Source: an uncultured Pyrinomonadaceae bacterium (GTDB taxonomy: Bacteria > Acidobacteriota > Blastocatellia > Pyrinomonadales > Pyrinomonadaceae). From it: 43,579 nucleotides of DNA. The notes beneath the pieces are model-generated. The model did not search any database. It was not told the DNA's origin and saw only the letters and a list, made by a program, of their open reading frames with translations. The translations under genes and the position numbers were made by a program. The stretch is taken from NCBI GenBank assembly GCA_902805935.1, contig CADCUR010000013.1, positions 1 through 43,579 on the forward strand, read 5' to 3'. This document shows positions 4,641 to 30,119 of the stretch, in pieces (position 1 is the first letter of the stretch; every line of letters begins with the position of its first letter).

Positions 4641-4687
4641 TTCGGCGTTAGCTTATCGTTGATTTATAACAATAAGCTAACGCCGAA
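4641..4687. terminator. Hairpin between convergent genes
   Basis: A perfect 16-bp inverted repeat (4641-4656 and 4672-4687, arm TTCGGCGTTAGCTTAT) with a 15-base spacer that can add three more pairs (GTT/AAC). It sits between the TonB-domain gene (+) and the DUF512 gene (-), where a shared bidirectional terminator is expected. There is no clean T-run on either side, so intrinsic termination would be atypical. Confidence 0.65.
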
Positions 4688-13651: not shown

Positions 13652-15331
13652 ATGTCTGTCACAACACTCGACACCTCGCGCCTCGAATCGCTGCTCGAAT
13701 CGGCGCAACTTTTAAATTCGTCGCTCGATTTAGACAGTCTTCTCCAACATCTTCTGCGAACCGTGATGGGACGCGCTCTTGTCGGGCGCGGATTCATCGC
13801 CGTCAGCGAAGACGGCGCGATGAAGCTGGCGCAAATTCGCGGACTTAAAAATTTAAAAATCGGCGATATTTTTAATGAAGAAACTGTGCGCGAAGCGGGA
13901 ATACATTCGATTTACCCGATTGGTGACCTGGCGAATCCGACCGGGCTTTTAGGAATCGGCAAACCGCCCGGCGGAGCGATTATGCCGGAGGAGGAAGAAT
14001 CGCTCAAAGCGCTTTTGGGAATCGCCGCGAGCAGCTTGGCGAACGCGCAGGCGCACCGCGAAACGCGCCAATTTAATTTTCAGTTAAACGAAAAAGTTCA
14101 GGAACTGCGCGCTTTGCTCGACCTTGTTCGCGGTTTGACTTCGACGCTCGAACCCGACGAAGTGGCGCGTCTGCTCGTTTTAACTTTGACCGGGCGCTGG
14201 GCGGTCGGCAAATACGCGCTCGCCGTGAAAAAAGAAAATCATCCGCCATTGGCGCGGCAGAAGGGAATTGCGCTGCCCGAAATCGAAAGTTTTGCGGAAA
14301 TGACTGGCGAACTGCCCGAAGCCGTTTTCACCCGAAATCTGCCCGACGGCGCCTTTAAAGACGCGCTTCTCGCACAAAAAGCCGAACTCGTTTTTCCGAT
14401 TCGCTCGTCCGAATCAACCAATGGCATTTTAGTTTTGGGTTCGCGTCTCGGCAAAACCGCTTATACCGAATCCGATCTTGAATTCGGCGCGGGACTCGTC
14501 GCGCAGGCGGGCGTTGCGCTGGAAAATTCGTGGTATGTTTTGGAAACCATCGAGCGCAAAAAAATGGAGCAGGAATTAGCGCTCGCGGCGAGCATTCAGG
14601 AAGGGCTTTTCCCGGAATTTCTGCCGCGCGTCGAAGGTTACGATTTGGCAGCCAAAAACCGTCCGGCTCTGCAGTGCGGCGGCGACTATTACGACGTTTT
14701 GCCGATTGAGAAAATTTCCGCTGACGACGAAAAATCTTATCTGTTATGCGTCGCCGATGTTTCCGGCAAAGGTTTGCCAGCATCGCTTTTGATGAGCAAT
14801 ATGCAGGCGACACTGCGCGCTCTGCTCGGACGAGTCCCGACCTTGGTCGAACTCGCTTCGCGCACCAACGAATTGCTGCACGCTACCACGCCGTCGAACA
14901 AATTCGTCACCGCGATTTTATTTGAAATTTTCCCCGCGACTGGCAAAGCCAATTACGTCAACGCCGGACACGGCGATTGTATGCTTTTGAGAGGCAAATC
15001 AGGCGCGGCGGAAAAACTCGAATCAACCGGACTGCCGCTCGGAATGATGGCGTCCGATATGCTCGAAATGCTCGGCAAAGGTTACGAAGAAAAGCATCTC
15101 GAATTAAATTCGGGCGACCTTCTCGCGCTTTATTCGGACGGCGTCACCGAAGCCTACGACGAAGCCGAAAACGAATGGGGCGACGAAAGACTTTTAAATT
15201 GTCTGCATCCGATTCTCGGAAATTCTTCTGAAAATATCGTCGGCAAAGTTTTTGAAGCGATAGACGATTTCGCCCAAACCGCGCCGCAGCACGACGATAT
15301 TACTTTGATGATTATCAAACGAAACGAATAA
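13652..15331 (+). CDS. GAF-GAF-PP2C cytoplasmic serine phosphatase (RsbU-like)
   Basis: 559 residues, soluble, with no membrane segment. Two GAF-like sensor regions (about 15-135 and 150-295) are separated by a helical linker. A short coiled coil (about 300-318, with [17 protein letters not shown]) and a PP2C/SpoIIE domain follow, with metal-binding motifs GGDYYD (343-348), ADVSGKG (368-374), YSDGVTEA and the C-terminal QHDDITLM. It lies 56 bases after the kinase gene and probably belongs to the same operon. It would provide a cytoplasmic or redox/ligand input that dephosphorylates the STAS protein, alongside the two membrane phosphatases. The GAF ligand cannot be read from sequence. Confidence 0.9.
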
Positions 15332-15347
15332 AAATCGCGGAAAATTA

Positions 15348-16880
15348 TCAAATCTCAACCAAATCAATCTGCGCCCTTTGCAGTTTGCCCGAATAGTCAA
15401 CATAGAGCGATTTCCATTCGGTGAAAATATCTAAAACCTGCGTTCCGGCTTCGCGGTGTCCGTTGCCCGTTGCTTTCGTGCCGCCGAACGGCAGATGAAC
15501 TTCCGCGCCGATGGTCGCCGAATTGACGTAACAAATTCCGGTGTAAAGTTCCTGCATCGCGTAAAACGCTTGATTGACATCTTGCGTGTAAATCGCCGAC
15601 GACAAACCGTAAGGAACGTTATTGACGATATCAATCGCTTCGTCGAGCGTGGAAAACGGTATGACCGACGTGACGGGACCAAAGATTTCTTCCTGCCCGA
15701 TGCGCATTGTCGGCGCAACGTCGGTGAAAACCGTCGGTTCGATAAAATAACCTTTCGCGTAATCGCCGCGCGTCAAACGATTGCCGCCGCAGGCGAGTTT
15801 AGCTTTGTCTTCTTTTTGCCCGATTTCGATGTAGCCGAGAATTTTTTCCATCGCGGCTTGATTGATGACCGGACCGACTTCGGTTTTCGCCTCAAGTCCG
15901 TTGCCGACTTTTAATTGTTTAACTCGCTCGACTAATTTCTCGCAGAATTTTTTATAAACTTTTCGGTGAACGACGAGCCGCGACGAAGCCGTGCAGCGTT
16001 GTCCGCTCGTTCCAAACGCGCCCCACAAAGAACCTTCGACGGCGTTCTCCACGTCCGCGTCGTCCATTACGATAATCGCGTTTTTGCCGCCCATCTCCAA
16101 ACTGACGATTTTATTTGTCTGCGCGCATTGCTCGGCGATGTTCCTGCCCGTGTCGGTCGAGCCGGTAAAAGAAATCAGGCGCACGTCTTTGTGACCCACG
16201 AGCGGCGCGCCGACCTCCGCACCGTGTCCGTTGACGAGATTGACAACGCCTTTCGGTATTCCGGCTTCTTCGCAGGATTTGACTAAATTCAAAGCCGAAA
16301 GCGGCACGTCTTCGCCGGATTTAAGAACGACCGTGTTGCCGCAAACGAGCGCGGGAATAAGTTTCCAGGAGGGAATCGCCATCGGAAAATTAAACGGCGT
16401 AATCAGCCCACAGATGCCGACCGGCTGGCGGACACACATCGCAAATTTGTTCGGCATTTCCGCCGGAGTGGTAAAGCCGTGCAACCGCCTGCCTTCGCCC
16501 GCCGTGTAATAGGTGCAGTCAATCGCTTCCTGCACGTCGCCGCCCGCTTCTTTTGTCACCTTGCCCATCTCGCGCGTCATCTCGCGCGTGAAGCGGTCTT
16601 TGTTCGCGCGTAGAATTTCGCCCAACCGGAAAAGAATTTCAGCGCGTTTCGGCGCGGGCGTTCGGCGCCATTTCGTCGCGGCATTTTTCGCAGCTTCGAC
16701 GGCTCGGTTTACGTCTTCTTCATTCGACGCGGGAAAACGCCCGATGACATCCGTGGTGTCAGCCGGATTCAAGTTTTCAAACGATTCGCCCGACGCGCTT
16801 TTCGTCCATTCGCCGCCGATGTAATTGTGAAAAGTTTTGGTTGATGTTTTCGCTTTTTTTGCTTCTTTCGCTTTTACCAT
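15348..16880 (-). CDS. NAD(P)-dependent aldehyde dehydrogenase
   Basis: 510 residues with complete ALDH-superfamily chemistry: Asn164 in TPFNFPM (oxyanion hole), Lys187 (cofactor), FTGST (238-242), general base Glu262 in LEMGGKN, and nucleophile Cys296 in SGQRCTAS. The C-terminal [13 protein letters not shown] resembles subfamilies acting on semialdehydes such as aminoadipate or ketoglutarate semialdehyde. The exact substrate is uncertain. A Lys-rich 15-residue N-terminal extension precedes the catalytic fold. Convergent with the GAF phosphatase, with only 16 bases between the stops. It lies downstream of htrA on the same strand, separated by a heptamer-period hairpin. Confidence 0.93.
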
Positions 16881-16890
16881 AATTTTATAA

Positions 16891-16963
16891 GTCTAAAGTC
16901 GAAAGTCCAAAGTCTCAAGTCGCAGACGCGTTGACTTGAAACTTTGGACTTTGAATTTCGGAC
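16891..16963. repeat. Heptamer-period inverted repeat B
   Basis: The left arm (16891-16921) is a run of 7-base units variant on AAAGTCN. The right arm (16933-16963) is its inverted copy (GACTTTG-like units). The 31-base arms pair with six mismatches around an 11-base loop. It lies between the htrA stop (16972) and the aldehyde dehydrogenase start (16880), and could act as a 3' structure for htrA. Confidence 0.85.
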
Positions 16964-16971
16964 TGACTTAT

Positions 16972-18534
16972 TTACTGAACTGTAAATTGCACGATGCGCT
17001 TTTGCGGATTTTGCGTTTGCAAATCGTAGCTTTGCATCTGCAAAACGACGGCATCGCCTTTCTTAAGTTTGCTGACGGTTTCATTAAAAGATTTTAAATC
17101 CGTGACCGGCGCGCGATTGATGCGCTGAATCAAATCGCCTTCCTTGAATGCGTCGGTGCCGTTCGAGTTTTTAACGTCGGCAATAAAACTCGCCTGGTTG
17201 ATGTTTTTGATAATCAAACCTTTTTCGCCCTCGACTTTGTAAACGGCGGCGAGCTGCGGCGTGAGTTCAATCAAGGTTAAACCGAACGGTTCGACCGGTT
17301 TTTTCGTGTCACTGACGGGCAGTTTTTTCGGAACATCTGCTTCGTCAACAATCGGATCTCTCGACGGACGTTCGGCAAGTTTGACGACCGCGGTTTTGCG
17401 TTCGAGCGCGGCGCCGACTTCGCGCAGGTAAACGACGCCGACTTCTTTTTCCGGCGCGGCGGCGGCGATTTTCGCCACTAAGTCCGGCGCGCTCGCCACC
17501 TTCTCGCCGTTAAATTCCAGAATAATATCGCCCGCCTGCAGCCCGGCTAAGGCGGCGGCGCTTTTCCGGTCGCTGACGTTAGTTACAATCGCTCCCTTCG
17601 CTTCGGCGAGTCCATAAACTTTGGCGAACTCGGTTTTCACCGAATCGAGATTGACGCCGAAATAACCGCGCCGCACTTTGCCGTATTCTCTGATTTGCCG
17701 GTAAACATTCGCCGCTTCGTTTGCCGGCAAAGCGAAACCGATGCCGTTGTAGTCACCGGTCGAGGTGGCGATTTGCGAATTGACGCCGATGACTTCGCCG
17801 TCCATATTTACGAGCGGTCCGCCGGAGTTCCCGCGATTGATCGCCGCGTCGGTCTGGATAAATTTTTGAAACTGCGAGCCGTAAGGCGTTTCGCGTTTCG
17901 TCTGCGAGATAATTCCCGCCGTCACGGTTTGCGCCAGACCGAACGGCGAGCCGATTGCCAGAACCCAATCGCCGACCTGCGCCCGGTCGGAATTGCCGAG
18001 TTTGATAAACGGCAAATCGCGCCCCGCGTCAATTTTCAAAATCGCCAAATCGGTTTCGCCGTCTGTGCCGACGACGCGGGCAATGTGTTCTTCGCCGGAT
18101 TGAAGGCTGACGATGATGCGCGAGGCTTCGTCAACGACGTGCGCGTTCGTCAAAATATAGCCCGACTTGTCCACAATAAAACCGCTGCCGACCGCCGCCG
18201 CCGGGCGGCGCGGCAACATTCGGCGATACATTTCTAACAAATCGTTTTGGTTACCAGCCTCCGGCTTTTCGCCTTTCAGCGTTATTTCCGCCGGAACTTT
18301 GCCTTTGGTGTCAATGTTGACGACCGCCGCTTCGACGCGCTTTGAAACTTCGGCAAACGAAGCAGAAAGCATTTCCGGCGTAATGGTCGAAGGCTTCGGT
18401 TTTTCCGTTTCGGTTTGAGCGTGGGAAAAACTCTGATTGACGCCAAAAAACAAACCTGCAAATACTAAATTCAAAAACAAAAGACGAATCCTGCGCGAGA
18501 GAAAAACTTCAGATTCTTTGCAACGAACAAACAT
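16972..18534 (-). CDS. HtrA/DegP-family periplasmic serine protease
   Basis: 520 residues from ATG 18534, chosen because AAGGAG lies about 10 bases upstream; an in-frame codon at 18570 would place that site inside the gene. A signal sequence (about 15-40, ending near SHAQ) exports the protein. The trypsin-like domain carries the triad His132 (TNAHVVD), Asp162 (ETDLAILK) and Ser237 (GNSGGP). Two PDZ domains follow (about 285-390 and 410-515, with LQAGDIILEFNG and EGDLIQRIN). Members degrade or refold damaged envelope proteins and often respond to envelope stress. It is co-directional with the alcohol dehydrogenase upstream (110-base gap). Confidence 0.93.
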   Translation of the reverse strand: MFVRCKESEVFLSRRIRLLFLNLVFAGLFFGVNQSFSHAQTETEKPKPSTITPEMLSASFAEVSKRVEAAVVNIDTKGKVPAEITLKGEKPEAGNQNDLLEMYRRMLPRRPAAAVGSGFIVDKSGYILTNAHVVDEASRIIVSLQSGEEHIARVVGTDGETDLAILKIDAGRDLPFIKLGNSDRAQVGDWVLAIGSPFGLAQTVTAGIISQTKRETPYGSQFQKFIQTDAAINRGNSGGPLVNMDGEVIGVNSQIATSTGDYNGIGFALPANEAANVYRQIREYGKVRRGYFGVNLDSVKTEFAKVYGLAEAKGAIVTNVSDRKSAAALAGLQAGDIILEFNGEKVASAPDLVAKIAAAAPEKEVGVVYLREVGAALERKTAVVKLAERPSRDPIVDEADVPKKLPVSDTKKPVEPFGLTLIELTPQLAAVYKVEGEKGLIIKNINQASFIADVKNSNGTDAFKEGDLIQRINRAPVTDLKSFNETVSKLKKGDAVVLQMQSYDLQTQNPQKRIVQFTVQ

Positions 18535-18644
18535 AAATCTATTTCTCCTTAATAGTGCCGAAACCGGCAAGTGTAGCTTTAACCGAGTATAACAAAAGCC
18601 GTTTGCGAATGACGAACCGATGCGGAAAATTTACAACTTTAATT

Positions 18645-19613
18645 TTAACGCTGATTCGGCATCGAAAGAATAATTTTCATCGCGCCTTTCTGCCCGGCGC
18701 GTCCGATTGCTTGCACGCCTTCACTTAAAGAAAGTTCCTCGCTGATGAGATTTTCAACCGCCACCGATTTGTTTTTCAGTAATTCGAGCGCGGGCGCGAA
18801 TCTGCCGCAGCGCGAGCCGACAATCGTGATTTCCTCGACCACGACGCGCCACGCCTGCCACTGCGCCGCGCCGTGAAATGTTGATTTCAAAACTAACTTG
18901 CCGCGCGGTTTCAGTAAATCGAGTGCCAGATTAAAACCCGATTCCGCGCCGCTCGCTTCAACCGCAACGTCAAAACATTTATTCAATTTCAAAGCGTCAT
19001 CGAGCAGAACAGTTTCGATATTACGCTCACGGACAAGCGCGAGTTTCTCTTTGTGCTTTCCGACGAGAACGACATTACGACTTTTCAAAGAGAGCGTTTG
19101 AGCGCACAGATTGCCGAGTTTACCGTCGCCGATAACGACGACTTTTGTTTCCGGGGTAATCTCGATTTGTTCGTTGATTCCAAACGCCGCCGCGAGCGGT
19201 TCGACGAAAACCGCCTGCTCGTCGGAAACCGCATCGGGAACTTCCAATAAATTGCGTGCGGGCAGCGTTAAAAATTCGGCGTGCGCGCCGTCGCGTCCGA
19301 CGATTCCCAACACGGTTCGCGCCGGGCAGTGGCGCGAATCGCCGCGCAAACACCATTCGCATTCGCCGCAACCGGCGTTGATTTCGCCGACGACGCGTTT
19401 GCCGACGAACTGCGGCGCGTCAAAAGCTTCTTCAACTACGCCGATGAATTCGTGTCCGATAGTTCCCGAAAATCCGGCGTAACCGCGCACGATTTCCAAA
19501 TCCGTATTGCAGATTCCCGATTTCGTAACGCGCACGACCGCCTCCGTTTCGCTCATCGGTTTTGGAATCTCGGCGAGTTGTAATTGATTGTTTTCAAAGC
19601 GCAGAGCTTTCAT
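18645..19613 (-). CDS. Zinc-dependent medium-chain alcohol dehydrogenase family protein
   Basis: 322 residues from ATG 19613. An open frame extends 54 codons further, but that stretch is encoded by repeat DNA and runs into the neighbouring gene, so the shorter start is preferred. The GroES-like half shows catalytic zinc ligands in GICNTD and GHE, and the four structural-zinc cysteines in CGECEWCLRGDSRHC. The Rossmann half begins at VVVIGDGKLGNLCAQ. It is shorter than typical members (about 340-360). It should oxidise an alcohol or polyol with NAD(P), but the substrate is unknown; the aldehyde dehydrogenase at 15348 is a conceivable partner, though htrA lies between them. Confidence 0.88.
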   Translation of the reverse strand: MKALRFENNQLQLAEIPKPMSETEAVVRVTKSGICNTDLEIVRGYAGFSGTIGHEFIGVVEEAFDAPQFVGKRVVGEINAGCGECEWCLRGDSRHCPARTVLGIVGRDGAHAEFLTLPARNLLEVPDAVSDEQAVFVEPLAAAFGINEQIEITPETKVVVIGDGKLGNLCAQTLSLKSRNVVLVGKHKEKLALVRERNIETVLLDDALKLNKCFDVAVEASGAESGFNLALDLLKPRGKLVLKSTFHGAAQWQAWRVVVEEITIVGSRCGRFAPALELLKNKSVAVENLISEELSLSEGVQAIGRAGQKGAMKIILSMPNQR

Positions 19614-19620
19614 TTTATTT

Positions 19621-19722
19621 AGTCTTTCGTCCTTTGTCCTTAGTTTTTTGTTGTGAAAATCACAAATTAAATATTCAAGTTTGAAAAGAGAGACGAAGGA
19701 CAAAGGACAAAGGACGAAGGAC
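19621..19722. repeat. Heptamer-period inverted repeat C
   Basis: The left arm (19621-19643) has period-7 units GTCCTTT/GTCCTTA. The right arm (19692-19722) holds five units of AAGGACN in inverted orientation. The arms pair over about 20 bases around a loop of about 60 bases. It fills the gap between the stop of the zinc-ribbon gene (19724) and the start of the alcohol dehydrogenase (19613), and has opened a spurious N-terminal extension of the latter. Confidence 0.85.
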
Positions 19723-19723
19723 A

Positions 19724-20617
19724 TTATTTCTGCGTGTAATAAATCTTCAAATCCTTCTCGCCGGTAATCAGCCATCTGCCGCCGATTTTGTTGAGCGTTA
19801 GTTGCTGCTGCACTTTGCCGGACGAGAATTTTTCCGCGCCTTCAAAATTCCACTCTTTGTCTAAAACGACGGTCGCTCGTTCGCCCGATGCGTCTGGCGT
19901 AACCTTCACGTTATCAATATTGATATTGATTGTGTCGTATGCGGCAAAGGCGCGCGCGCGGTCGTTGCGAACTCGGTCAACATTAACGCGCCCGGCTTTG
20001 TAAAAATCAACCGTATCGGCGTATTGGTCGATGTGCGCGTCGAGGTCGAGATTTTCCGTCGTGTCCTTCCATTCGTCCACGACATTTTTCACGTCATTGG
20101 TAACGGCTTTCGCCGTTTCGGGTTTGAGCGTCGGCTGCGCGGTAGGCGTGGCAGTCGCTGTTGGCGACGGCGTGGCGACATTAGCGTTCGTGTTTTGGTT
20201 CGCCGCATTCGCATTTGAAGGACGATTCTGAGGCGCGGTGTTGACGCCGACGGCGACCTGCGTTTTCTTATTGCTGAAATAAAGCCACGCGCCCAAACCG
20301 CCCAGAGCGAGCAGCAAAATCGTTCCCAAAACCGAAAGCGTGACGATTGCCGCGGTGTTCGATTTTTTCTTTTCGTGTTTTTCGATGACGACCGGCTCAT
20401 TCGTCGGCTGCCGGTTCGCATCGTTCGTTTGATACGAACTCGGCGGCTCGAACCGTATCGGCTCGACTCTTTTGGGCGAAACGACCGTTTCTGATTCGGT
20501 GTTGAAATAATCCGCTGGATTCTGATTCGGAATTCCGACGAGCGGAGTTCCGTCCTGCAGGCAAAACTGCAAACTGTCGTCGGCGTAAGTCGTCTGGCAA
20601 TTCGGGCATCGTTTCAT
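19724..20617 (-). CDS. Zinc-ribbon, single-membrane-span protein with NTF2-like C-terminal region
   Basis: 297 residues. An N-terminal zinc ribbon (CPNCQTTY then QFCLQDG, about residues 4-24) precedes a charged cytoplasmic stretch and one membrane helix (about 88-113). A low-complexity linker rich in Asn, Thr and Pro (about 120-165) follows, then a folded region (about 165-297) resembling SnoaL/NTF2-like domains, with a conserved-looking WNFEG and a terminal GRWLITGEKDLKIYY. The function is unknown. The layout suggests a sensor or scaffold linking cytoplasm and periplasm. It is related at the N-terminus to the proteins at 22451 and, more distantly, 34853. Its stop codon abuts the repeat at 19621-19722. 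Confidence 0.8.
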   Translation of the reverse strand: MKRCPNCQTTYADDSLQFCLQDGTPLVGIPNQNPADYFNTESETVVSPKRVEPIRFEPPSSYQTNDANRQPTNEPVVIEKHEKKKSNTAAIVTLSVLGTILLLALGGLGAWLYFSNKKTQVAVGVNTAPQNRPSNANAANQNTNANVATPSPTATATPTAQPTLKPETAKAVTNDVKNVVDEWKDTTENLDLDAHIDQYADTVDFYKAGRVNVDRVRNDRARAFAAYDTININIDNVKVTPDASGERATVVLDKEWNFEGAEKFSSGKVQQQLTLNKIGGRWLITGEKDLKIYYTQK

Positions 20618-20620
20618 AGT

Positions 20621-20636
20621 TTCTATGATAATAGAA
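20621..20636. promoter_or_regulatory. Short inverted repeat upstream of the zinc-ribbon gene
   Basis: TTCTAT-GATA-ATAGAA is a perfect 6-4-6 inverted repeat starting three bases upstream of the ATG at 20617 on the minus strand. It lies where a ribosome site would be and no Shine-Dalgarno is visible. It could be an operator or a small mRNA hairpin; chance is also possible at this length. Confidence 0.3.
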
Positions 20637-20678
20637 CGAACCGGCGAAAATAGTAAATAATCTAAGCGGGAAGCAAAG

Positions 20679-20772
20679 GTAGTTTTTGGTTTTTAGTTTT
20701 TAGTATTTTGCGTTTATAGATTAAGCATTAAATCGGAACTAAATTATAGAAACCGAAAACTAAAAACCGAAT
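20679..20772. repeat. Heptamer-period inverted repeat D, overlapping a stop codon
   Basis: The left arm (20679-20710) has 7-base units of the form TTTTTAG/TTTTTGG. The right arm (20749-20772) has ACCGAAA and ACTAAAA units in inverted orientation. The common paired core is GGTTTTTAGTTTT (13 bases). The right arm includes the TAG stop (20760-20762) and last codons of the desaturase gene, so its C-terminal FGF is encoded by repeat sequence. Confidence 0.8.
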
Positions 20773-22244
20773 CCTTCTCCGGCGCCTTTCCTTATCATTT
20801 CCGCCGCCATTTTTCCCGACAGCAAAACGAGCGGCATTCCGCCGCCCGGATGCGTCGCGCCGCCGACGAAAAAAAGATTTTCGATTTGTCCGGAGCGATT
20901 CGGCACGCGCAGAAAAGCCGAAAAAATTCCGTTTGACGAAACGCCGTAGATCGAGCCGCGGTTGGTTCGATATTTATTTTCAAATTCTTCCGGCGTGATA
21001 ATTTGCTCGAACTCGATTGACGCTTCTAAATTTTCCAAACCGAAACTTTCCAGTTTTTCAATAATCGAATCGCGGTAACTTTTCGCTTCGATTTTCCAAT
21101 CGGTTTTCGCGCTCGTATAAGGCGCGTTGACTAGCACAAACAGATTTTCGCAGTTTTCCGGCGCCTGCGTCGCATCGGTTCTGGAACTGGCGCAAACGTA
21201 AATCGTCGGATTGCGCGCCGGTCGCAAATCCCGAAAAAGCGCGTCGAATTCGGCTGGGTAATCGTCGGAAAAAAAGATGTTGTGATGCGCCAGATTTTCG
21301 TATCTTTTTTTGACGCCCAAAAGCAAAACGAAACCGCTCGAAGACGGCTGACGTTTGTCTAATCTTTCATTGAAAAATTCTTTGTCAATCAAATTCCGGT
21401 AAGTTTCCACTGCGTCGGAATTGGCGACGACGTAATCGCTTTTCAAAATCTCGCCGTCTTCTGTCTGAACGCCGATTGTTTTTTTATTCTCGATGATGAT
21501 TTTTCGGACGGGGCAATTTAATTTGATTTCTACGCCGAATTCTTTTGCCAGTCGTTCGAGCGCCTGCGGAATCTCATAGATGCCGCCGCGCGCATACCAC
21601 GCTCCCAAACCGAATTCGACGAACGGCACGAGCGCGAAAGTCGCCGGAGTTTGATAAGGCGACGAGCCGTTATAAGTGGCGAAACGATTGAAAAGCTGTT
21701 GCAGTTTCGCGGATTGAAAATAACTTTCGTTGTGCGCCGCGAGAGTTTTCATCGAAGAAATGCGCAACAAATCTTTGAGGTATTTAGGGCGCAACAGTTT
21801 CGGCAAATCATTTAACGAATGCGCGAGAAAAGTTTTACCGGCAATCTCGTATTTGCGCCGCGCGTCAGCCAGATATTTTCGGAAGTTTTCCACATCGCGC
21901 GGCTCTAATTTCGCAATCTCGTTTTCGGTTTTACGCAAATCGCTTGACGCGTCGAACCGGCTGCCGTCCGACCAGAAGTAACGGCAAATCGTCTGGAGCG
22001 GCTCGATGTTCAGGTAATCTTCGAGGCGTCTTTCGCAAAAATTAAATAAATCTTCAAAAACGTGCCGCATTGTTAGAAGCGACGCGCCCGTGTCGAATTT
22101 ATAACCGTCCGCCTCGACCGAGTTTACTTTTCCGCCGACCGTTTCGTTTTTCTCCAAAATCGTCACGTCAAAACCGGATTTTGCCAGCCGACAAGCGGCG
22201 GCGAGTCCGCCCAAACCGGCGCCGATGACGATAATATTTTTCAT
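20760..22244 (-). CDS. CrtI-type phytoene desaturase family FAD protein
   Basis: 494 residues. An N-terminal dinucleotide-binding segment, VIGAGLGGLAAACRLAKSG (5-23), binds FAD. The C-terminal signature FVGGATHPGGGMPLVLLSGKM is typical of CrtI, CrtN and CrtD desaturases. It would introduce double bonds into a carotenoid precursor such as phytoene, or act on a related polyene. No phytoene synthase (crtB) or other carotenoid gene lies beside it, so the pathway step is uncertain. A second, more distant member is encoded at 32963. The last three codons and the stop lie in repeat D. The gene is divergent from the zinc-ribbon/TonB gene. Confidence 0.9.
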   Translation of the reverse strand: MKNIIVIGAGLGGLAAACRLAKSGFDVTILEKNETVGGKVNSVEADGYKFDTGASLLTMRHVFEDLFNFCERRLEDYLNIEPLQTICRYFWSDGSRFDASSDLRKTENEIAKLEPRDVENFRKYLADARRKYEIAGKTFLAHSLNDLPKLLRPKYLKDLLRISSMKTLAAHNESYFQSAKLQQLFNRFATYNGSSPYQTPATFALVPFVEFGLGAWYARGGIYEIPQALERLAKEFGVEIKLNCPVRKIIIENKKTIGVQTEDGEILKSDYVVANSDAVETYRNLIDKEFFNERLDKRQPSSSGFVLLLGVKKRYENLAHHNIFFSDDYPAEFDALFRDLRPARNPTIYVCASSRTDATQAPENCENLFVLVNAPYTSAKTDWKIEAKSYRDSIIEKLESFGLENLEASIEFEQIITPEEFENKYRTNRGSIYGVSSNGIFSAFLRVPNRSGQIENLFFVGGATHPGGGMPLVLLSGKMAAEMIRKGAGEGFGF

Positions 22245-22450
22245 AAAGACGAGTTTATGGCAAATGCGCGAGAAATAAAAACTCGTCTCCGTCTGTTGCC
22301 CGCCGCCACCGGCGATGCTTCACCGAATAATCCGCTTTCTAATAAACCGCCGATATTCTTCGACGCGAAAAATCGTGATAGAATGCGTATGCGAGATTGA
22401 CTTAACGGATTTGATAAAAAAATCGAAAAGGGAATTTGATAAATAAAATT

Positions 22451-23524
22451 ATGAAATTTTGCCCAACCTGCAAAACCCGTTACGACGAGGAAATTCTGCG
22501 CTTTTGCACCAAAGACGGCACGCCGCTCATCGAGGAAAGCGAGCCGAATTTTACCGCCCTGCCGAGCGAAAGCAAACAAGACGATTTGGGCGAAGAGACG
22601 ATTATCCGCCGCAAAAATCCTTCGCCCGTCTCCGATTCCGAACCCGAGGGCGAACGTCTCTCTTCGCCGCCGCGCATCGTCATTCCGACGACTGGCAAAA
22701 CTGAATCGGAAAGTCCGCCGCCGCTGCAAAGGGAAGCAGTTCGGGCGGCAGCCCGCGAAACAATTCGCCGTCACCAACCGCCGCGAAAATCCAATACGGC
22801 GACCGTCGTTTTTCTAACGGTTGTGGGAACGATAGCGGTTTTAGCTGGCGCGGCGGGAATTTTCTGGTTCTTAAATAATCAGAATTCCAACGCCAATCAG
22901 AACGTTAACTATAATACGAATTTTAATTCGATAGACATCAATCTAAATACCAATTTCAATGCCGGCAATTCGCTTGCTAATTTCGATTACAACAGCAACA
23001 TTAACGCGAATGCGAATGTCAATGTCAATGCGAACGCCAATGCTAATGCTAATGCAAATGCCAACCTGAAAACGCCGACGCCGACTAAGACGCCGACCGC
23101 GACTCCGACGCCCGGAACGAACCTCAACGTCAACGGCGCGATCAACGAGAACGCGAACGCGCTGCCGACCAACGCCAGCCCGACTCCGTCGCCGCGCCCG
23201 TCGCCGAGCGCGTCGCCGACACCGACAGCGCCAGCAGTAAATCGTCCGGTCAATGCGGGAATCTTAAACGGTCGCGCCGTCAATCTGCCGAAACCGGCTT
23301 ATCCGCCGCTCGCCAAACAGATGCGGGCGGACGGACAGGTCGCCGTACAAGTTTTAGTGGACGAAGCAGGTAACGTCACTTCGGCACGCGCGACGAGCGG
23401 AAATCCGATGCTTCGCGCTTCTGCAGAAGCCGCCGCCCGTCAATCGAAATTCAATCCGATCCGAGTCAACAATCAACCCGTTTCGGCTTCCGGCGTCGTG
23501 CTGTATAATTTTGTCAATCAATAA
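22451..23524 (+). CDS. Zinc-ribbon, membrane-anchored protein with TonB C-terminal domain
   Basis: 357 residues from ATG 22451, chosen because it places the zinc ribbon (CPTCKTRY, then RFCTKDG) at the very N-terminus as in its relative at 20617. An in-frame TTG at 22436 is an alternative with a closer AAGGGA. A single membrane helix (about 118-140) follows a charged cytoplasmic segment. The periplasmic linker is almost pure Asn/Ala/Val (about 145-200) and then Pro/Thr/Ser. The C-terminal region (about 272-357) is a TonB domain with VLVDEAGNVTSARATSG and KFNP, like the one at 3794. Fusion of a cytoplasmic zinc ribbon to a TonB domain is unusual. The function is unknown. Confidence 0.83.
   Translation: MKFCPTCKTRYDEEILRFCTKDGTPLIEESEPNFTALPSESKQDDLGEETIIRRKNPSPVSDSEPEGERLSSPPRIVIPTTGKTESESPPPLQREAVRAAARETIRRHQPPRKSNTATVVFLTVVGTIAVLAGAAGIFWFLNNQNSNANQNVNYNTNFNSIDINLNTNFNAGNSLANFDYNSNINANANVNVNANANANANANANLKTPTPTKTPTATPTPGTNLNVNGAINENANALPTNASPTPSPRPSPSASPTPTAPAVNRPVNAGILNGRAVNLPKPAYPPLAKQMRADGQVAVQVLVDEAGNVTSARATSGNPMLRASAEAAARQSKFNPIRVNNQPVSASGVVLYNFVNQ
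23003..23062 (+). repeat. Ten 6-bp codon-pair repeats encoding an Asn-rich tract
   Basis: Ten consecutive hexamers of the form AAYGNN (AATGCG, AATGTC, AATGCT and variants) encode alternating Asn with Ala or Val. They sit in the periplasmic linker of the zinc-ribbon/TonB protein. The unit is in frame, so copy-number change would lengthen or shorten the linker without breaking the gene. Confidence 0.9.
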
Positions 23525-23530
23525 ATAAAG

Positions 23531-23616
23531 ACGGTCTTAGGTCTTCGGCATTTGGTCTTCGTTTTCTACATTGAAAGTTGAGTTATAAAATCAAAGACCG
23601 ATGTCCGAAGATCGGT
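23531..23616. repeat. Heptamer-period inverted repeat E, overlapping a stop codon
   Basis: The left arm (23531-23561) has 7-base units GGTCTTA, GGTCTTC and GGCATTT. The right arm (23592-23616) has AAGACCG, ATGTCCG and AAGATCG in inverted orientation. It lies between two convergent genes and could be a shared terminator-like structure. The right arm encodes the last residues (RSSDIGL) of the subtilase on the minus strand. Confidence 0.83.
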
Positions 23617-24979
23617 TTATCGCCATCTCGACCGCTCGCCGCGGGTCGAGAACGCCCCAGCCTTGGCGGTCAACTTCGTAATGCGGCAGGCGTTCCGCCG
23701 ACGAGATTAAGATTCTTTTGATTTGCTGCGGCGTCAAAACGGGATTCGCTTCGAGCATCTGCGCGATGACCGACGAGACAATCGGCGCGGCAAATGAAGT
23801 TCCGTCAACGTATTTGTAATGGCGCGTAATCACGTTTTCATCGCGCAATTTGAGAGCGATTATTTGGCGCAGAACGTGAACCGGACGGTCGAGCGCGGCA
23901 TCGAGTTCCGGTTCGAGATTCGGGTTCGCTTCGATAATTCGGTGCAAATCCTGATCTTCGGCTTTGTCTAAAACGTCGAGCATAGCGGCTTGCTGCGCCG
24001 TCGGCGTGTCGGGCAGAATCGGCGCCGGTATCCAGATTGACGGCGCGATGATTTCCGGTTTCTGCAAGCCGTCGAGCGTCGGACCATACGACGAGCGATA
24101 CATTCCGCGCCGCGCACGGTTGATCGAATTGTGATCGTCAAGCCCGCCGACGGAAATCGCCGAAGGCGCAGAGGCGGGCGGAAAGACCGGATGGTTCGGC
24201 AGATGTCCGGCGTTGCCGACGGCGCACACAACTGTCAGTCCCTGCGAGACGCACTCTTCAACCGTTTGTGATAAAGAATCGTGCAGGTAAGATTGCTCGA
24301 AATCGCCGCCCGCCGAAATGTTCACGATTCGGATATTAAATTTTTCGCGGTGCGCCAAAACCCATTCCAAACCGTCCTGGATATTATGCTCGGTGATGCG
24401 CCCGGTTCTGGCTAATTTCACCAAAACGACGTTTGCCTCCGGCGCAATGCCGCGGTAAAAACCGTTCGACAAACCGCCGTTTCCCGCCGCTACGACCGAA
24501 GTCATCATTCCGTGCCAACTCGCCACGTCCGGCTGCCACAAAGATGCCACTTCGCCGTCGGTCGCGTTCATATTTTGATAAGCTAGAATTCGATTCTTCG
24601 GCTCGGTCAAATCCTTGTGCGGATAAAATCCCGAATCGAGAAAGGCAATCGTCACATTTTTGCCGGTAAATCGTTCGTCCGAATCAAGGCGCAGAGGCGT
24701 CGAGAGAACGAACGAGCCGTCTTTGTTCACCGCCGCATCGCTCAAAATATGTGTTTTAGCGCGCTCGAAAAGCCGCGCGCAGCGGGCGCAAATCTCCTGA
24801 AATGCGTTTGCGTCGGAAGCGTTGGCGCAGATGAGATTGCGCAAGTCGTCGGGCAGAGTCGCAAGCGGCACAAACTCGTTTTTCGCCTCGCGCGAGCAAA
24901 CCGAACAAATCTGTTCGCCCGCCGCAATGTCGGCGACCAGCGTCGGGCGTGAATATTGTAAAGATTCGGGCGCGGTCAT
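23591..24979 (-). CDS. S8 (subtilisin-family) serine peptidase, apparently cytoplasmic
   Basis: 462 residues from ATG 24979; an in-frame TTG at 25024 would add 15 residues and has no better ribosome site. The catalytic triad is Asp115 (AFLDSGFYP), His156 (SWHGMMT) and Ser395 (DGTSFAAP), with oxyanion Asn256 (AVGNAGH). There is no signal peptide. An N-terminal region carries two CxxC pairs (Cys25/28 and Cys64/67) that look like a zinc-binding module. An insert of about 70 residues (about 318-388) lies between the core and the Ser motif, and the usual HGTH after the His is HGMM. It may be an intracellular regulatory protease. The substrate is unknown. Confidence 0.85.
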   Translation of the reverse strand: MTAPESLQYSRPTLVADIAAGEQICSVCSREAKNEFVPLATLPDDLRNLICANASDANAFQEICARCARLFERAKTHILSDAAVNKDGSFVLSTPLRLDSDERFTGKNVTIAFLDSGFYPHKDLTEPKNRILAYQNMNATDGEVASLWQPDVASWHGMMTSVVAAGNGGLSNGFYRGIAPEANVVLVKLARTGRITEHNIQDGLEWVLAHREKFNIRIVNISAGGDFEQSYLHDSLSQTVEECVSQGLTVVCAVGNAGHLPNHPVFPPASAPSAISVGGLDDHNSINRARRGMYRSSYGPTLDGLQKPEIIAPSIWIPAPILPDTPTAQQAAMLDVLDKAEDQDLHRIIEANPNLEPELDAALDRPVHVLRQIIALKLRDENVITRHYKYVDGTSFAAPIVSSVIAQMLEANPVLTPQQIKRILISSAERLPHYEVDRQGWGVLDPRRAVEMAINRSSDIGL

Positions 24980-25043
24980 ATTTGATGTTAAAATGAGATT
25001 AAGTTTTTCACAGTCGAAAATCAATTTACACGAATGATCGAGT

Positions 25044-25109
25044 AAAAACTGAAAAGTGAAAACTAAAAACCGCTACGAGTTTCCAGTTTTCGCTTTTCAG
25101 TTTTCAGTT
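25044..25109. repeat. Heptamer-period inverted repeat F
   Basis: The left arm (25044-25070) has 7-base units AAAACTG, AAAAGTG and AAAACTA. The right arm (25081-25109) has CAGTTTT, CGCTTTT and CAGTTTT in inverted orientation. About 20 of 21 core bases pair. It lies between the divergent subtilase and patatin genes, in the leader of the patatin gene just before its ATG at 25116. Confidence 0.85.
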
Positions 25110-25115
25110 CAAATT

Positions 25116-25895
25116 ATGTCTCGAAAAAAAATCGGCATCGCTCTCTCCGGCGGCGCAGCGCGCGGCTTCGCTCACTTGGGCGTTCTGAAAGTCCTCGTCG
25201 AAAATAAAATTCCGATTGACTGCATCGCCGGAACAAGTGCCGGTTCGTTTGTCGGCGCCGCTTACGCTTCGGGTTTGAGCGTCGAAGAAATTATTAAAAT
25301 CGGCAGAAAAATCAGTTGGTTTCGGATGACCGGATTTTCCTACTCGCCGAAAGGTTTATTGTCGAACGCCGGGATGGGCGCGTTTATCAGAGAACATTTT
25401 CCCCGACAAAATTTTGAAGATTTAGCGATTCCTTACGCCGCCGTCGCCTGCGATTTGGAATCGGGCGTCGAAGTGATTTTAAAGGACGCGGGCGATTTGG
25501 CGGCGGCGGTGCGAGCGAGCTGCGCGATTCCCGGCGTGTTCGTTCCAATCGAAATCGAAGGCAGACGCCTTATTGACGGCGGCGTCGTCTCGAACGTCCC
25601 GACGAAAGCCGTCCGGCGGCTCGGCGCGGAAATCGTCATCGCGGTTGACGTGCTGGCTTCCGGCGCAAGTTACTGGGGTTCGCCCTCGACTCTGCTCGGC
25701 ATTTTTTTTCAATCGGCGATGATGCTTCTCCGCGCCGCGTCAAAGGCGCATCACTACCGCGCCGATGTCGTCATCATTCCGCAAATCGCTCATCTCCGCC
25801 CGGACGAAATCAGCAAGATGGATGAATTTATCCAAGCCGGCGAAGCAGCGGCGCTCGAAAAAATAGATGAAATTAAAAATTTGATTGCCATTTGA
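25116..25895 (+). CDS. Patatin-like phospholipase (RssA-like)
   Basis: 259 residues from ATG 25116. An upstream in-frame GTG would add 20 residues encoded by repeat F, so it is rejected. The Ser-Asp dyad of patatin lipases is visible: Ser41 in GTSAG and Asp154 in the DGG motif (RLIDGGVVSNVP). The glycine-rich oxyanion loop is SGGAARG (11-17). Such enzymes hydrolyse acyl esters of membrane lipids. The short, single-domain form matches the YlbK/RssA group, whose substrates are poorly known. No signal peptide is seen. The ribosome site is poor. Confidence 0.9.
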   Translation: MSRKKIGIALSGGAARGFAHLGVLKVLVENKIPIDCIAGTSAGSFVGAAYASGLSVEEIIKIGRKISWFRMTGFSYSPKGLLSNAGMGAFIREHFPRQNFEDLAIPYAAVACDLESGVEVILKDAGDLAAAVRASCAIPGVFVPIEIEGRRLIDGGVVSNVPTKAVRRLGAEIVIAVDVLASGASYWGSPSTLLGIFFQSAMMLLRAASKAHHYRADVVIIPQIAHLRPDEISKMDEFIQAGEAAALEKIDEIKNLIAI

Positions 25896-26029
25896 ATTCG
25901 TTCTATTGTCGAACTTTCGAGCGTGGATTTTGTTCTTGCTGATTAATTTTAATACGCTTCATAACGGCTGCTCGACAATCCTTTTACGAGACGAAAAAAG
26001 CATCCAACACAATTTTATTATTCATCATC
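25896..26029. other. Intergenic stretch upstream of the iron-uptake promoter
   Basis: Together with the promoter, operator and leader it forms the 424-base gap between the patatin gene and the TonB-dependent receptor. In this first part I see no gene, repeat or strong hairpin. A T-rich stretch follows the patatin stop but no clear stem precedes it. Confidence 0.5.
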
Positions 26030-26059
26030 TTGACAGCCCTTGGATGAGCCGATTATAAT
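26030..26059 (+). promoter_or_regulatory. Consensus sigma-70 promoter of the iron-uptake operon
   Basis: TTGACA (26030-26035) and TATAAT (26054-26059) both match the consensus exactly and are 18 bases apart. Transcription should start near 26066-26070, right at the Fur-box-like palindrome. The leader from there to the receptor ATG is about 250 bases. Confidence 0.75.
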
Positions 26060-26069
26060 TTAATCTTTG

Positions 26070-26086
26070 TTGAAAACGATTTTCAA
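26070..26086. promoter_or_regulatory. Fur-box-like operator
   Basis: TTGAAAACGATTTTCAA is a perfect 7-3-7 inverted repeat. Read as the 7-1-7 form used for Fur sites, TGAAAACGATTTTCA matches TGATAATNATTATCA at 11 of 14 fixed positions. It lies directly after the -10 box, so a bound repressor would block transcription initiation. The downstream genes (siderophore-type receptor and PepSY protein) are standard Fur targets. Binding by Fur itself is inferred. Confidence 0.65.
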
Positions 26087-26319
26087 TTTCAATTCTTTGT
26101 CGTTAAAAAAGTCTTTAGCGCGGCAACGCCAAAGACTCGAAACACAAAAATCCGTTGTCTCTTTGGAACGAATAACGAATCGTGTGCGGAAGCAATCTTA
26201 GCACACCTTTCATTAACCGGAAACCAAAAATTTTGACCGACGTCTGCCGCCTGCGATTAATCATGGCACGGGGGCGATTCAATCAAAATTTTTTCTCCGG
26301 CAGGAGTTTACTTAAAAAA

Positions 26320-28863
26320 ATGAATCGTGTAACGATTAAAATTGCAATCAAACAAATCTTTCGTTTAATTTCACCGACCGCTTTTTCAATTTTTCTAATA
26401 ACTTCAATCGGTTTGGCACAGAGTTCGACAGCCGTCCTGCAAGGCGTTGTGACTGACGAGAACAAGGCGATTGTTCCCGAAGCCCGAATCATTCTGCGCG
26501 GCGAGATAAGCGCAGACCGCCAAACGATTTCGGACGCGAACGGCGTTTTTTCATTCGGCGCGCTACCGTTCGGAAAATATCGCTTAACGGTTGAGAAAGA
26601 GGGTTTCGCCCTTTTCGAGCGCGAAATCAGCTTGGATGCGGTTAATCAAAATACGGATTTGACTTTAGCGGCGGGCGCGGTCACTGAGTCGGTAACGATT
26701 GTTTTGGACGGCGCGGAGGCGGCAGTCGAATCAACTTTGAAACTTCCGGTTTCGATTCACGAAACGCCGCGCAGCGTGACGGTCATCGGCGATGAACGCC
26801 TGCGCGAACAAAACTTCCGGCAGGTTTCCGACGTGCTGCCCTATGTGCCGGGAATCACACCGAATAGTTACCGCAACGGCGGTTATCATTTTTACGCGCG
26901 CGGCTATCGTCAGTCGCCGGACGACACGCGGCTCGACGGTTTTGCGGGCATTAACGTCGGCAGTAACGGATTCGGCGCGAGTCTTTTCGGCATCGAAGAA
27001 GCGGTCGTGCTGCGTGGTCCGGCGGCTTTGATTTACGGTTCGACCGGCTCGCCCGGCGGATTCGTTAATCTCGTTTCCAAACGTCCGCGGGAAAATCGCT
27101 TCACGCGCGTTGATTTGCGCGGCGGCGGTTACGACGGCAATGGCGTTTCCCTCGGGGAGCGTCCGTCATACGGTTTTGATATTGACACAACCGGAACGTT
27201 CACGAAAAGCAATCGAGTTTTATACCGCGGATTGTTGACGCTCGAAAATTCAAATTATTTCACGGCGGACACGCTTGACCGCAATCGTTACACCAACGCT
27301 TCGGTCTCATTTAAGTTGGACAAAGACGGACGCTACGTTCTCACGCCGAGTTTTCAATACACACATTTCAATCGTCCATACGGCGGCGGAGTCGTCATCT
27401 CGCCGACAACTTCGCTCAGCACGAACGACCGCAATAGTTCGCCGATTAACGAAAGCGATTTATCGCCGCTCGATGTCAATCTTTCGGCGGGCAGACGAAT
27501 CGAAAAAACCGGGTGGATCGGCGTTGATTTTCGCGGAGTAGTAACCGATAAAATTCGCGTCAACGCGGCGTATCGTTTCGTTTCTTTTGACACAGACATC
27601 AATCAATTCGTTCCGCAGGTTTCTTCAGCGGCGCAAATCAATCAACTTCAGAGGCAAAACCTCGTTTCGCGCGTTCAGGCGAAAAGTTTAACCGAGCGGC
27701 ACTATAACAATTTCAACGCCGACGCGAGTTATGAATGGCTGAACGACGGCTGGTGGAAAAACACGACGCAAATCGGTTTCTACCAGCGCATTTTGGATTC
27801 GCGCGTGACGACGGCGCGAGGCGCAATTCCCGGAGCGCAGTCGCCGATTAACGTTTACACCGGACAAACATCGTCGCCGCTGCGCGACGTTTATCCGGCA
27901 ATCGCGTTCGGCGTGTGGAGTCGGGACATTGTATTGAACGGCTTCATTCAAAACCGCACGTCGTTCGATAACGGACGCTGGAACGTGACGCTCGGATTTA
28001 ATTACGGGCAGAACAAACCCGCCCCGACCGCGCTCGTAACCGCGCCGCCGACGCGCAGCAGCGGAATCGTTCCGAACGCGGCAGTTGTTTTTAACGCGAC
28101 GCAGGAATTGGCGATTTACGCGAGTTATTCGACCAGCTACAATCCGAACGATCCGCTGCTCGAAGACGCGAACGGCAATCGAGGCACTTTTGCGCCCGTG
28201 ACTGGCAGAAATTTTGAAGTCGGCGCGAAATACGATTTGCTGAATCGCCGCGTTGGATTAACCGTCGCGCTTTTTCAAAATCAGATTGACAACGCGCTCG
28301 TGCAAACGGACGCGAACGTTCTAAATTCCAACAACGTGCGTTATTACGTTCCAGCCGGAACGCGGCGCTCGCGCGGAGCGGAAATGACGGGCGAGTTTCA
28401 AGTGCGCCAAGATTTGCGCGTTTCGGCGGGCGTGAGCTACTTGAACGCGATTTACAAAGGATTTCCTTCAAGTTTAACGGTCACGGGCTTGCCGCCGCAA
28501 AATTCGCCGATTCCGAATTCTCCGGCGGAAAAATCGCCGCGATGGACTTATAACGTCTATACTCGCTACGACCGACGCGAAGGTTATCTAAAAGGCTTCG
28601 GCGCGGGTTTCGGAATGTTCTGGCAAGGAAAACGCCTGGGCAGCAACGGCGCGCGAACTTTCGCCGCGCCCGACCCGCTCGTTTTGCCGTCATTTACGCG
28701 CGTTGATTCGGCTGTGTTCTACCGTGTGAACAAATTCGTCAATTTCGCGCTTAACGTCGAAAACGTGTTCGACGAATTAATTTACGTTAACGCCTCGGTC
28801 GGTTCAAACATCGAAATCGCCGCGCCGCGCACGCTGACGTTTCGCACGACGTTTAATTTTTAG
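26320..28863 (+). CDS. TonB-dependent siderophore-type outer-membrane receptor
   Basis: 847 residues from ATG 26320, which has AGGAG upstream (spacing about 13) and starts right before a signal peptide (about 1-34, ending near GLAQ). An earlier in-frame codon at 26182 would add a non-signal extension. A carboxypeptidase-regulatory-like domain (about 38-120) precedes the plug (about 130-250, with IHETPRSVTVIGDE and ARGYRQSPDDTRLDG). The beta-barrel ends with the terminal aromatic residue of TFRTTFNF. The plug sequence is of the ferric-siderophore type. Expression is probably iron-controlled from the promoter and operator upstream. The PepSY gene follows in the same operon. Confidence 0.92.
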   Translation: MNRVTIKIAIKQIFRLISPTAFSIFLITSIGLAQSSTAVLQGVVTDENKAIVPEARIILRGEISADRQTISDANGVFSFGALPFGKYRLTVEKEGFALFEREISLDAVNQNTDLTLAAGAVTESVTIVLDGAEAAVESTLKLPVSIHETPRSVTVIGDERLREQNFRQVSDVLPYVPGITPNSYRNGGYHFYARGYRQSPDDTRLDGFAGINVGSNGFGASLFGIEEAVVLRGPAALIYGSTGSPGGFVNLVSKRPRENRFTRVDLRGGGYDGNGVSLGERPSYGFDIDTTGTFTKSNRVLYRGLLTLENSNYFTADTLDRNRYTNASVSFKLDKDGRYVLTPSFQYTHFNRPYGGGVVISPTTSLSTNDRNSSPINESDLSPLDVNLSAGRRIEKTGWIGVDFRGVVTDKIRVNAAYRFVSFDTDINQFVPQVSSAAQINQLQRQNLVSRVQAKSLTERHYNNFNADASYEWLNDGWWKNTTQIGFYQRILDSRVTTARGAIPGAQSPINVYTGQTSSPLRDVYPAIAFGVWSRDIVLNGFIQNRTSFDNGRWNVTLGFNYGQNKPAPTALVTAPPTRSSGIVPNAAVVFNATQELAIYASYSTSYNPNDPLLEDANGNRGTFAPVTGRNFEVGAKYDLLNRRVGLTVALFQNQIDNALVQTDANVLNSNNVRYYVPAGTRRSRGAEMTGEFQVRQDLRVSAGVSYLNAIYKGFPSSLTVTGLPPQNSPIPNSPAEKSPRWTYNVYTRYDRREGYLKGFGAGFGMFWQGKRLGSNGARTFAAPDPLVLPSFTRVDSAVFYRVNKFVNFALNVENVFDELIYVNASVGSNIEIAAPRTLTFRTTFNF

Positions 28864-30075: not shown

Positions 30076-30119
30076 AAAATTGGCGGCTCGTTTGTGCGAG
30101 CAAACGAGCCGCCAATTTT
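30076..30119. terminator. Strong bidirectional terminator
   Basis: A perfect 19-bp stem (30076-30094 with 30101-30119) with a 6-base loop TGCGAG. The stem ends in A/T-rich runs on both sides, giving T-tracts for both strands. It separates the convergent PepSY (+) and FAD/Rieske (-) genes. Confidence 0.92.

Follow-up and report, generated by a model that had tools for sequence, protein, structure and literature searches.

Five of seven consecutive intergenic gaps within 8 kb of contig CADCUR010000013.1 of an uncultured Pyrinomonadaceae bacterium (GCA_902805935.1; positions 1 to 43,579, hereafter the window) hold hairpins whose two inverted arms are runs of degenerate 7-bp units. We find that they belong to a genome-wide population: hairpins of period 7-10 occupy 92 of the 611 gaps of at least 50 bp (~15%, about one in seven) in 71 sampled stretches of the genome. 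The arms of a hairpin share the order of their variant units, and the shape seems to outlast the sequence, as the same gap in related species often keeps a hairpin whose repeated word has drifted or been replaced. We tentatively regard them as DNA-level hairpin elements, gained at gene ends, kept alike by slippage and template switching and showing a mild preference for 3' ends, an account to which we grant not quite an even chance.

By inverted-repeat search, inverted heptamer arms were present in all five gaps (A, 16890-16964; B, 19622-19722; C, 20680-20762; D, 23542-23611; E, 25045-25104), in agreement with an earlier, sequence-only reading of the window that had assigned them one common architecture. 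The lag-7 identity of the gaps (0.56, 0.64, 0.56, 0.51 and 0.68 for A to E) was reached by none of 2000 dinucleotide-preserving shuffles per gap, also when any lag of 3-14 was allowed, so that the period of seven exceeds that of shuffled gap DNA in each of the five. A second inverted-repeat search returned A, B and E with identical arms and C in other registers (20696-20767, 20685-20771), and did not recover D. The RNA folding z-scores were -8.0, -6.2, -2.7, -2.3 and -7.6, with 0, 0, 2, 5 and 0 of 200 shuffles folding as well. The sequence-only reading had also given each locus a word of its own, which holds inside the window but not genome-wide, where AAAGTCC and GTCCTTT rank with the most frequent; its statement that no other gap of the window carries such a hairpin is nearly true, the marginal case being a sixth candidate at 26080-26149 (T-rich 5' arm, lag-7 identity 0.53, RNA z -1.8), which was left out of the hairpin counts as it falls below the lag-identity cut-off of 0.55.

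The genome sample comprised 1,173,442 bases (30% of 3.87 Mb, window included) in stretches picked by contig number or length, two of which (L161, L162) extend contigs first met via a word search; genes were called with a purpose-written script, assignment to a period class required an arm lag identity of at least 0.55, and the control was order-1 resampling in 300-base blocks (two copies of equal length). Among 464 inverted repeats in these 1.17 Mb, 61 had period-7 and 30 period-8 arms, against only 6 and 7 in the resampled DNA of twice the length; 57 of the 61 period-7 repeats were intergenic, the expectation per equal length of resampled DNA being 3. For period 9 we counted 11 and for period 10 we counted 9, each against 13 in the two resampled copies (6.5 per equal length), and for period 12 there were 24 against 16 per equal length, 19 of the 24 lying in coding DNA. 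Periods 7 and 8 are clearly above the shuffles and periods 9 and 10 barely; periods 9, 10 and 12 were dropped as separate classes, their counts being near the resampled expectation, and single cases (ACAGGAT, CACAGATG) are credible mainly because they recur elsewhere. The similar loci for which the sequence-only reading had proposed a genome scan thus exist, and they are not clustered: both of two adjacent gaps were occupied in 14 pairs, against 12.2 +/- 3.0 expected (635 of 2000 simulations as high, over the 611 gaps). Since the hairpins are genome-wide and unclustered, finding five of seven neighbouring gaps occupied is compatible with chance and an amplification confined to the 8 kb is ruled out; the local mechanism formerly suggested gives way to a homogenising one that is implied genome-wide. 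In 50 kb of Escherichia coli K-12 no inverted repeat of period 5-12 was found at the cut-off.

The anatomy of the elements was read from 81 period-7 and 35 period-8 intergenic hairpins, including those of ten extra stretches (L043-L052) that come from contigs carrying one word and were excluded from the occurrence, clustering and gene-context rates. The arms pair at 0.86 in register and at 0.72-0.74 when shifted by one unit, and the found register was better than both of its neighbours in 68 of the 81 period-7 and 31 of the 35 period-8 hairpins; in 75 of the 81, the match of arm to arm (0.86) exceeded that of neighbouring units within an arm (0.74). To allow for the search's own bias towards the best register, units were permuted within one arm and the register re-optimised, in all hairpins with arms of at least three units (65 of 81 and 29 of 35). 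The summed pairing score was 1251 against 1085 +/- 20 permuted for period 7 (best of 1000 permutations, 1153) and 651 against 550 +/- 15 for period 8. The observed scores exceed the permuted ones, so variant units follow one another in the same order in both arms, and a pair of independent same-word arrays facing opposite ways is ruled out.

The vocabulary is broad at period 7 (38 words among the 81 hairpins, the commonest being AAAGTCC with 9, ATTTTGG with 8, and CCTTTGT and AAGTTTC with 6 each), and at period 8 a single word, AAAAAGTG, serves 26 of the 35. Where two hairpins carry an identical word, same versus opposite orientation occurred in a ratio of 123:4 (period 7) and 325:0 (period 8), such pairs being non-independent (14 words with at least two hairpins underlie the first figure, one word the second). 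With one mismatch allowed the ratios became 295:126 and 407:0, hence at period 7 the orientation rule applies clearly to identical words and only loosely to words one letter apart. Period-7 loops had a median length of 10 where the 5' arm is A-rich (n = 29) and of 33 where it is T-rich (n = 51; p = 0.003), a link that fails across periods, since the period-8 arms, all A-rich, have loops of median length 31. Between loci the loops are almost unrelated, with mean scores of 6.9 against 6.0 shuffled at period 8 (20 loops), 7.4 against 6.7 at period 7 (41 loops) and 6.6 against 5.9 in the ATTTTGG-rich genome G079 (12 loops). The one exception is a pair of hairpins in stretch L051 (11919-12017 and 12865-12956, 0.9 kb apart) with loop and words in common; despite this pair, copying of whole elements as a rule is disfavoured by the lack of relation among loops.

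Gaps A to E were followed into related species, the counts including the window species and covering only species in which the gap was available. A period-7 hairpin stands at gap A in 3 of 3 species, spelled AAAGTCC in the window, GGTTCAA in relative G004 and AAGTTCA in G002. Gap B has one in 3 of 5: G004 carries a perfect 30-bp hairpin of AAGGCGA-like units and G008 a short one (15-bp arms, TTTTTGG), while G001 has a 30-bp non-periodic inverted repeat and G002 an 18-bp gap without hairpin. At gap E it occurs in 4 of 7 (AATAGTG, 25 bp and perfect, in G004; AAGTTCA in G005; 15-bp arms in G002) and is missing from G001, G003 and G008. Gap C is occupied in the window only (1 of 6 species, 0 of 5 relatives), as is gap D (1 of 7), where two relatives have just 16-19 bp. 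The two gaps of this 8-kb run that lack a hairpin in the window (g2-g3 and g5-g6) have one in both relatives compared (2 of 2) and in 1 of 7 relatives, respectively. Similar hairpins with different words at the same gap bear out the conserved structure with unconserved sequence that the first reading had described. A different repeated hairpin, TTCAGAGTCCACGCTT... / ...GTTTGGACTCTGAAC, was seen twice on one short contig of G008 (L083, gaps g2-g3 and g7-g8).

A broader comparison with G004 (stretches L043-L052 included) gave 66 conserved neighbours, in 51 of which the gap reaches 40 bp in one or other species: a hairpin was present in both species in 13, in G004 only in 12, here only in 5 and in neither in 21. 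Where both gaps measured at least 40 bp (42 pairs; 13, 10, 3 and 16), 10.1 shared cases were expected within gap-length classes (P = 0.037), and the agreement lost significance with both gaps at 60 bp or more (P = 0.16, 34 pairs) and at 80 bp or more (P = 0.21, 22 pairs). In the 13 gaps with a hairpin in both species, the mean word distance was 2.8 against 4.5 under random pairing (P = 0.005; words of unequal length scored as wholly different), nearer than random as expected of concerted drift; seven of the word pairs differ by 0-2 letters and six by at least 3 or in period, a pattern that looks like drift of whole arrays plus replacements.

A finer view came from one gap in genus g8 of the same family, read in 40 species (L223-L242, L246-L265) with hairpin types sorted by eye. 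A two-armed hairpin of this general kind was present in 18 (five GTGAAAAA, nine CACAGAG, two nested, one GCCGCAAAG and one ACAGGAT), nine of which reached the cut-off of 0.55 at period 8 or 9, the remainder being more degenerate; the other 22 species showed one single arm, ten other GC-rich hairpins and, in eleven, none visible. In the nested cases (L225, L234) a TTAACAGGG hairpin seemingly sits, judged by eye, within a CACAGAG- or CACGGAG-type stem, possibly a replacement caught midway. Species of the CACAGAG group have part of the loop in common (by eye), which argues that the hairpin is inherited within a type. On a neighbouring-protein tree of 20 species, the gap content required 8 parsimony changes against 11.7 shuffled (six labels, 'none' among them, the single arm scored as CACAGAG; 7 of the 17 inner branches unresolved), and since the tree is unrooted it does not distinguish gains from losses; the GTGAAAAA hairpins do not form one clade, with 2 changes forced. 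Across the nearest homologous pair (L223/L224, 77% DNA identity) the best stem drops from 0.83 to 0.77 and its register differs. The single arm, of CACAGAG type, stands without partner in a shortened gap in L230. A small palindrome, GGTTTTCGTAACC, persists at the gap's right edge in many species (L223-L231 and others), whatever the hairpin type.

The words are found well beyond the species, unevenly. GTGAAAAAGTGAAAAAGTG (one mismatch allowed) was found in 18 of 98 genomes and 6 of 41 genera of the class, its backward control being void as the pattern reads identically backwards; GATTTTGGATTTTGGATT, built on the ATTTTGG word, was found in 40 of 98 genomes and 21 of 41 genera, with a backward control near zero, and ranged within genus g8 from 0 to 279 matches per genome. 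Among plasmids, the ATTTTGG hairpin matched 19 records, 18 of them cyanobacterial by name and one from Candidatus Chlorohelix (Chloroflexota), which has two period-7 hairpins of this word. Calothrix has one period-7 hairpin of a related word, beside a single array, and Allocoleopsis two of another word; N letters were removed ahead of this hairpin scan and of one other, so that an N run in L092 is closed up. CACAGATG matched three plasmid records, with a perfect hairpin of 29-bp arms in Candidatus Thiodictyon (Gammaproteobacteria), and ACAGGAT a Spirosoma (Bacteroidota) plasmid, in which the hairpin is visible by eye and lies below the search cut-off. The orientation of the words in these other-phylum hairpins is the same as in the present genome. 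No period-7 or period-10 hairpin was found at the cut-off in the Dolichospermum, Nostoc and Anabaena stretches, the CACGAA hairpin had no match in plasmids, and a text search of the literature for four hairpin words returned no paper printing them, whereas six further words gave three papers, one about Nostoc punctiforme and two about animal cells.

Among known systems, as far as the consulted portions of the cited papers describe them, the closest likeness is with the heptanucleotide repeats (LSSR or STRR) of cyanobacteria, Xanthomonas and Beggiatoaceae (PMC4692102, PMC4679880), which are intergenic tandem heptamers. The resemblance, first noted for the cyanobacterial repeats, is more than formal, since the 7-bp units are intergenic and above chance here too (61 against 3 per equal length) and the ATTTTGG word recurs in cyanobacterial plasmids. 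Most LSSR are flanked by the same genes in both of two species and vary in length and sequence (PMC4692102). They are mostly direct repeats of one or few words, with one inverted heptamer-repeat pair reported in Xanthomonas (PMC4692102) and one indirect repeat mentioned elsewhere (PMC4679880); here, in counts that cover inverted pairs only, pairing of the arms is the norm, with one unit order common to both and a fixed orientation for each word, and numerous words exist side by side, with different ones at the same gap in different species. Repetitive extragenic palindromes (REPs), miniature inverted-repeat transposable elements (MITEs) and other short palindromic repeats (PMC3733652) are likewise intergenic stem-loops in many copies, patchy among species. 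REPs share sequence and end tags (PMC3733652), whereas the present hairpins have 38 words, longer periodic stems and different loops; the sequence sharing over the whole length that is typical of MITEs was not seen, the loops being nearly unrelated save for one related pair. Paired 7/8-mers of Geobacter metallireducens (PMC2700814) also lie on opposite strands at variable spacing, but have one consensus per class, in contrast to the many words and the word turnover seen here. Quasipalindrome or template-switch mutation (PMC8794818, PMC7202029) accounts for mutually matching arms, and alone gives neither the unit length nor the orientation nor the shared words.

The position of the hairpins relative to genes bears on whether they act as RNA. 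Among gaps of 60-250 bp, periodic hairpins occupied 21 of 78 convergent (27%), 57 of 296 tandem (19%) and 5 of 61 divergent (8%) gaps; tight non-periodic hairpins, which show the full terminator pattern, numbered 15, 10 and 1. For the hairpins of period 7-10 in tandem gaps (n = 99), median distances from the outer edges were 2 bp to the preceding stop and 13 bp to the following start; 37 overlap that stop codon and 12 that start. One could thus picture selected RNA structures (terminators, attenuators or stabilisers of mRNA 3' ends) for which any stem of the right strength would serve, leaving the sequence free to change; this would account for hairpins with changed words at the same gap in relatives, for the strong predicted RNA folds of A, B and E, and for their being commoner in convergent than in divergent gaps (odds ratio 4.1, p = 0.008). 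Periodic and tight non-periodic hairpins, moreover, never occurred together (0 of 78 against 25 of 296, p = 0.004; 374 tandem or convergent gaps of 60-250 bp), an exclusion that may equally reflect lack of room, as the search retains only the best of overlapping inverted repeats. Periodic hairpins were not significantly commoner in convergent than in tandem gaps (p = 0.16), unlike the tight non-periodic ones (p = 1e-5), and 7 of 113 divergent gaps also hold a hairpin. Hairpins that overlap a stop codon would be expected to be covered by terminating ribosomes, which counts against an RNA role in the 37 such cases, and the lack of significant positional agreement of two species at gaps of at least 60 bp does not favour it either. 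Selection on RNA pairing would favour G-U, yet mismatches on the sense strand of the 99 tandem-gap hairpins showed no excess of it (127 G-U against 111 A-C, p = 0.33, a small bias still being possible), so that this test lends such a role no support. The 3' structure that the sequence-only reading had offered as an alternative thus retains its preference for convergent over divergent gaps and its closeness to stop codons, and finds no backing in the mismatches; an RNA role is compatible with position and may act as a filter, and as the full explanation we hold it to be doubtful, albeit a serious contender.

Small non-autonomous mobile palindromes (REP- or MITE-like), with one family per word moved by a transposase, would explain the fixed orientation of each word, the strongly differing abundance of one word among related species, the location at gene ends, the occurrence of matching words on plasmids from Cyanobacteriota, Chloroflexota, Gammaproteobacteria and Bacteroidota, and the common loop of the L051 pair. 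The genome does encode two Y1 (IS200/RAYT-type) transposases (G000:C282:7941-8303 and G000:C271:14261-14623; L266, L267), but neither 3.4-kb locus contains a period-7 or period-8 hairpin, and an association with these genes was discarded. As the loops are otherwise barely more alike than shuffled ones, here and in the ATTTTGG-rich genome, and the arms vary in length with no fixed ends seen, we judge such mobility unlikely to be the explanation. Arrays of binding sites in inverted orientation, proposed as putative global regulator binding sites for the paired tandem 7-/8-mers of Geobacter metallireducens (PMC2700814, in the part consulted), are highly improbable here: there are 38 words in 81 hairpins, often differing at the same gap between species, binding does not require the arms to share unit order, and divergent gaps are the poorest in hairpins. 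A long shot of about the same standing is an activity that would copy a short internal template, with a telomerase-like logic, so as to add one 7-10-nt word to both 3' ends of a break, joining of which would leave word, loop and reverse complement; it would yield the fixed word orientation, unrelated loops, unit lengths of 7-10, a small cross-phylum vocabulary and different words at the same site, and would need later correction to give the shared unit order of the arms.

The reading that we prefer, that of DNA-level hairpin elements, envisages that a hairpin is gained through insertion beside a gene end, which would be the site of least harm. Replication slippage in unit-sized steps would then rewrite units, and template switching between the arms (quasipalindrome correction) would restore their match, so that the array would drift as a whole while its shape persists; arrays or pieces of them would also spread between loci by a further step, and the retention of copies may depend on a mild advantage of having a hairpin at the 3' end. 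A homogenising mechanism is implied because arms share unit order and words drift, and template switching can both create and maintain perfect stems (PMC8794818). Spread between loci is implied by the species-specific abundance of one word, and that something also spreads follows from word orientation, uneven abundance and cross-phylum words together. The account is further favoured by the excess of period-7 and period-8 inverted repeats over resampled DNA, the 8 changes of content at the g8 gap, the gene end supplied by hairpin D and the absence of a G-U excess on the sense strand. Several observations weigh against this account. Slippage alone explains neither the single orientation of words nor the same-word hairpins in other phyla; positional agreement between species was significant only in the loosest of the three gap-length classes; the drop in stem quality between L223 and L224 indicates that arm correction is not fast; the common loop of the L051 pair indicates that a whole element was duplicated at least once; and the gene context, richest at convergent and poorest at divergent gaps, is not neutral. 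If the account is true, a sizeable share of intergenic space consists of elements that persist as shape while their word drifts or swaps, and they provide a natural system for how hairpins arise and stay paired, a question usually raised for RNA genes. It also ties in with the heptamer repeats, for which the cited papers, in the portions consulted, offer a polymerase-slippage hypothesis without a worked-out mechanism.

The five hairpins of the window differ in their setting, A, B and C lying in tandem gaps, D in a convergent and E in a divergent one. Hairpin A (arms 16890-16921 and 16933-16964, word AAAGTCC, loop 11) fits between the stop (16972) of one minus-strand gene and the start (16880) of the next, at 9 and 7 bp from its neighbours, and hairpin B (arms 19622-19651 and 19693-19722, word GTCCTTT / AAAGGAC, loop 41) at 8 and 1 bp. 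The arms of hairpin C (20679-20772) consist of TTTTTAG / TTTTTGG units, the right one overlapping the 3' end of the minus-strand gene 20760-22244. Hairpin D (gap 23531-23616; arms 23542-23565 and 23588-23611, word GGTCTTC) has the weakest fold of the five, and its right arm encodes the final codons and stop of the minus-strand gene 23591-24979. The product of this gene ends in INRSSDIGL and those of six relatives in INL, LTLL, LSFT, LSFV, VSFI and VSFVR; given these shorter and different tails, its last codons derive from the hairpin arm. Hairpin E (arms 25045-25070 and 25079-25104, word AAAACTG, loop 8) stops 11 bp ahead of the ATG at 25116. An Rfam scan of 15000-27000 gave 12 matches with E up to 1, none at the gathering score (ten microRNA models on B and C, one Phe leader on B and one Cyano-2 inside a gene), and a known RNA family for the hairpins was set aside. 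Elsewhere in the window, tight non-periodic hairpins at 4641-4687 and 30076-30119 (95% and 100% paired, loops 7 and 6) resemble ordinary terminators. Within coding sequence, a period-6 repeat lies at 23015-23060 in gene 22451-23524 (AAT/AAC alternating with GCN codons), and a lag-7 match at 27 of 35 bases was seen at 5076-5117, inside the open reading frame 4720-6177.

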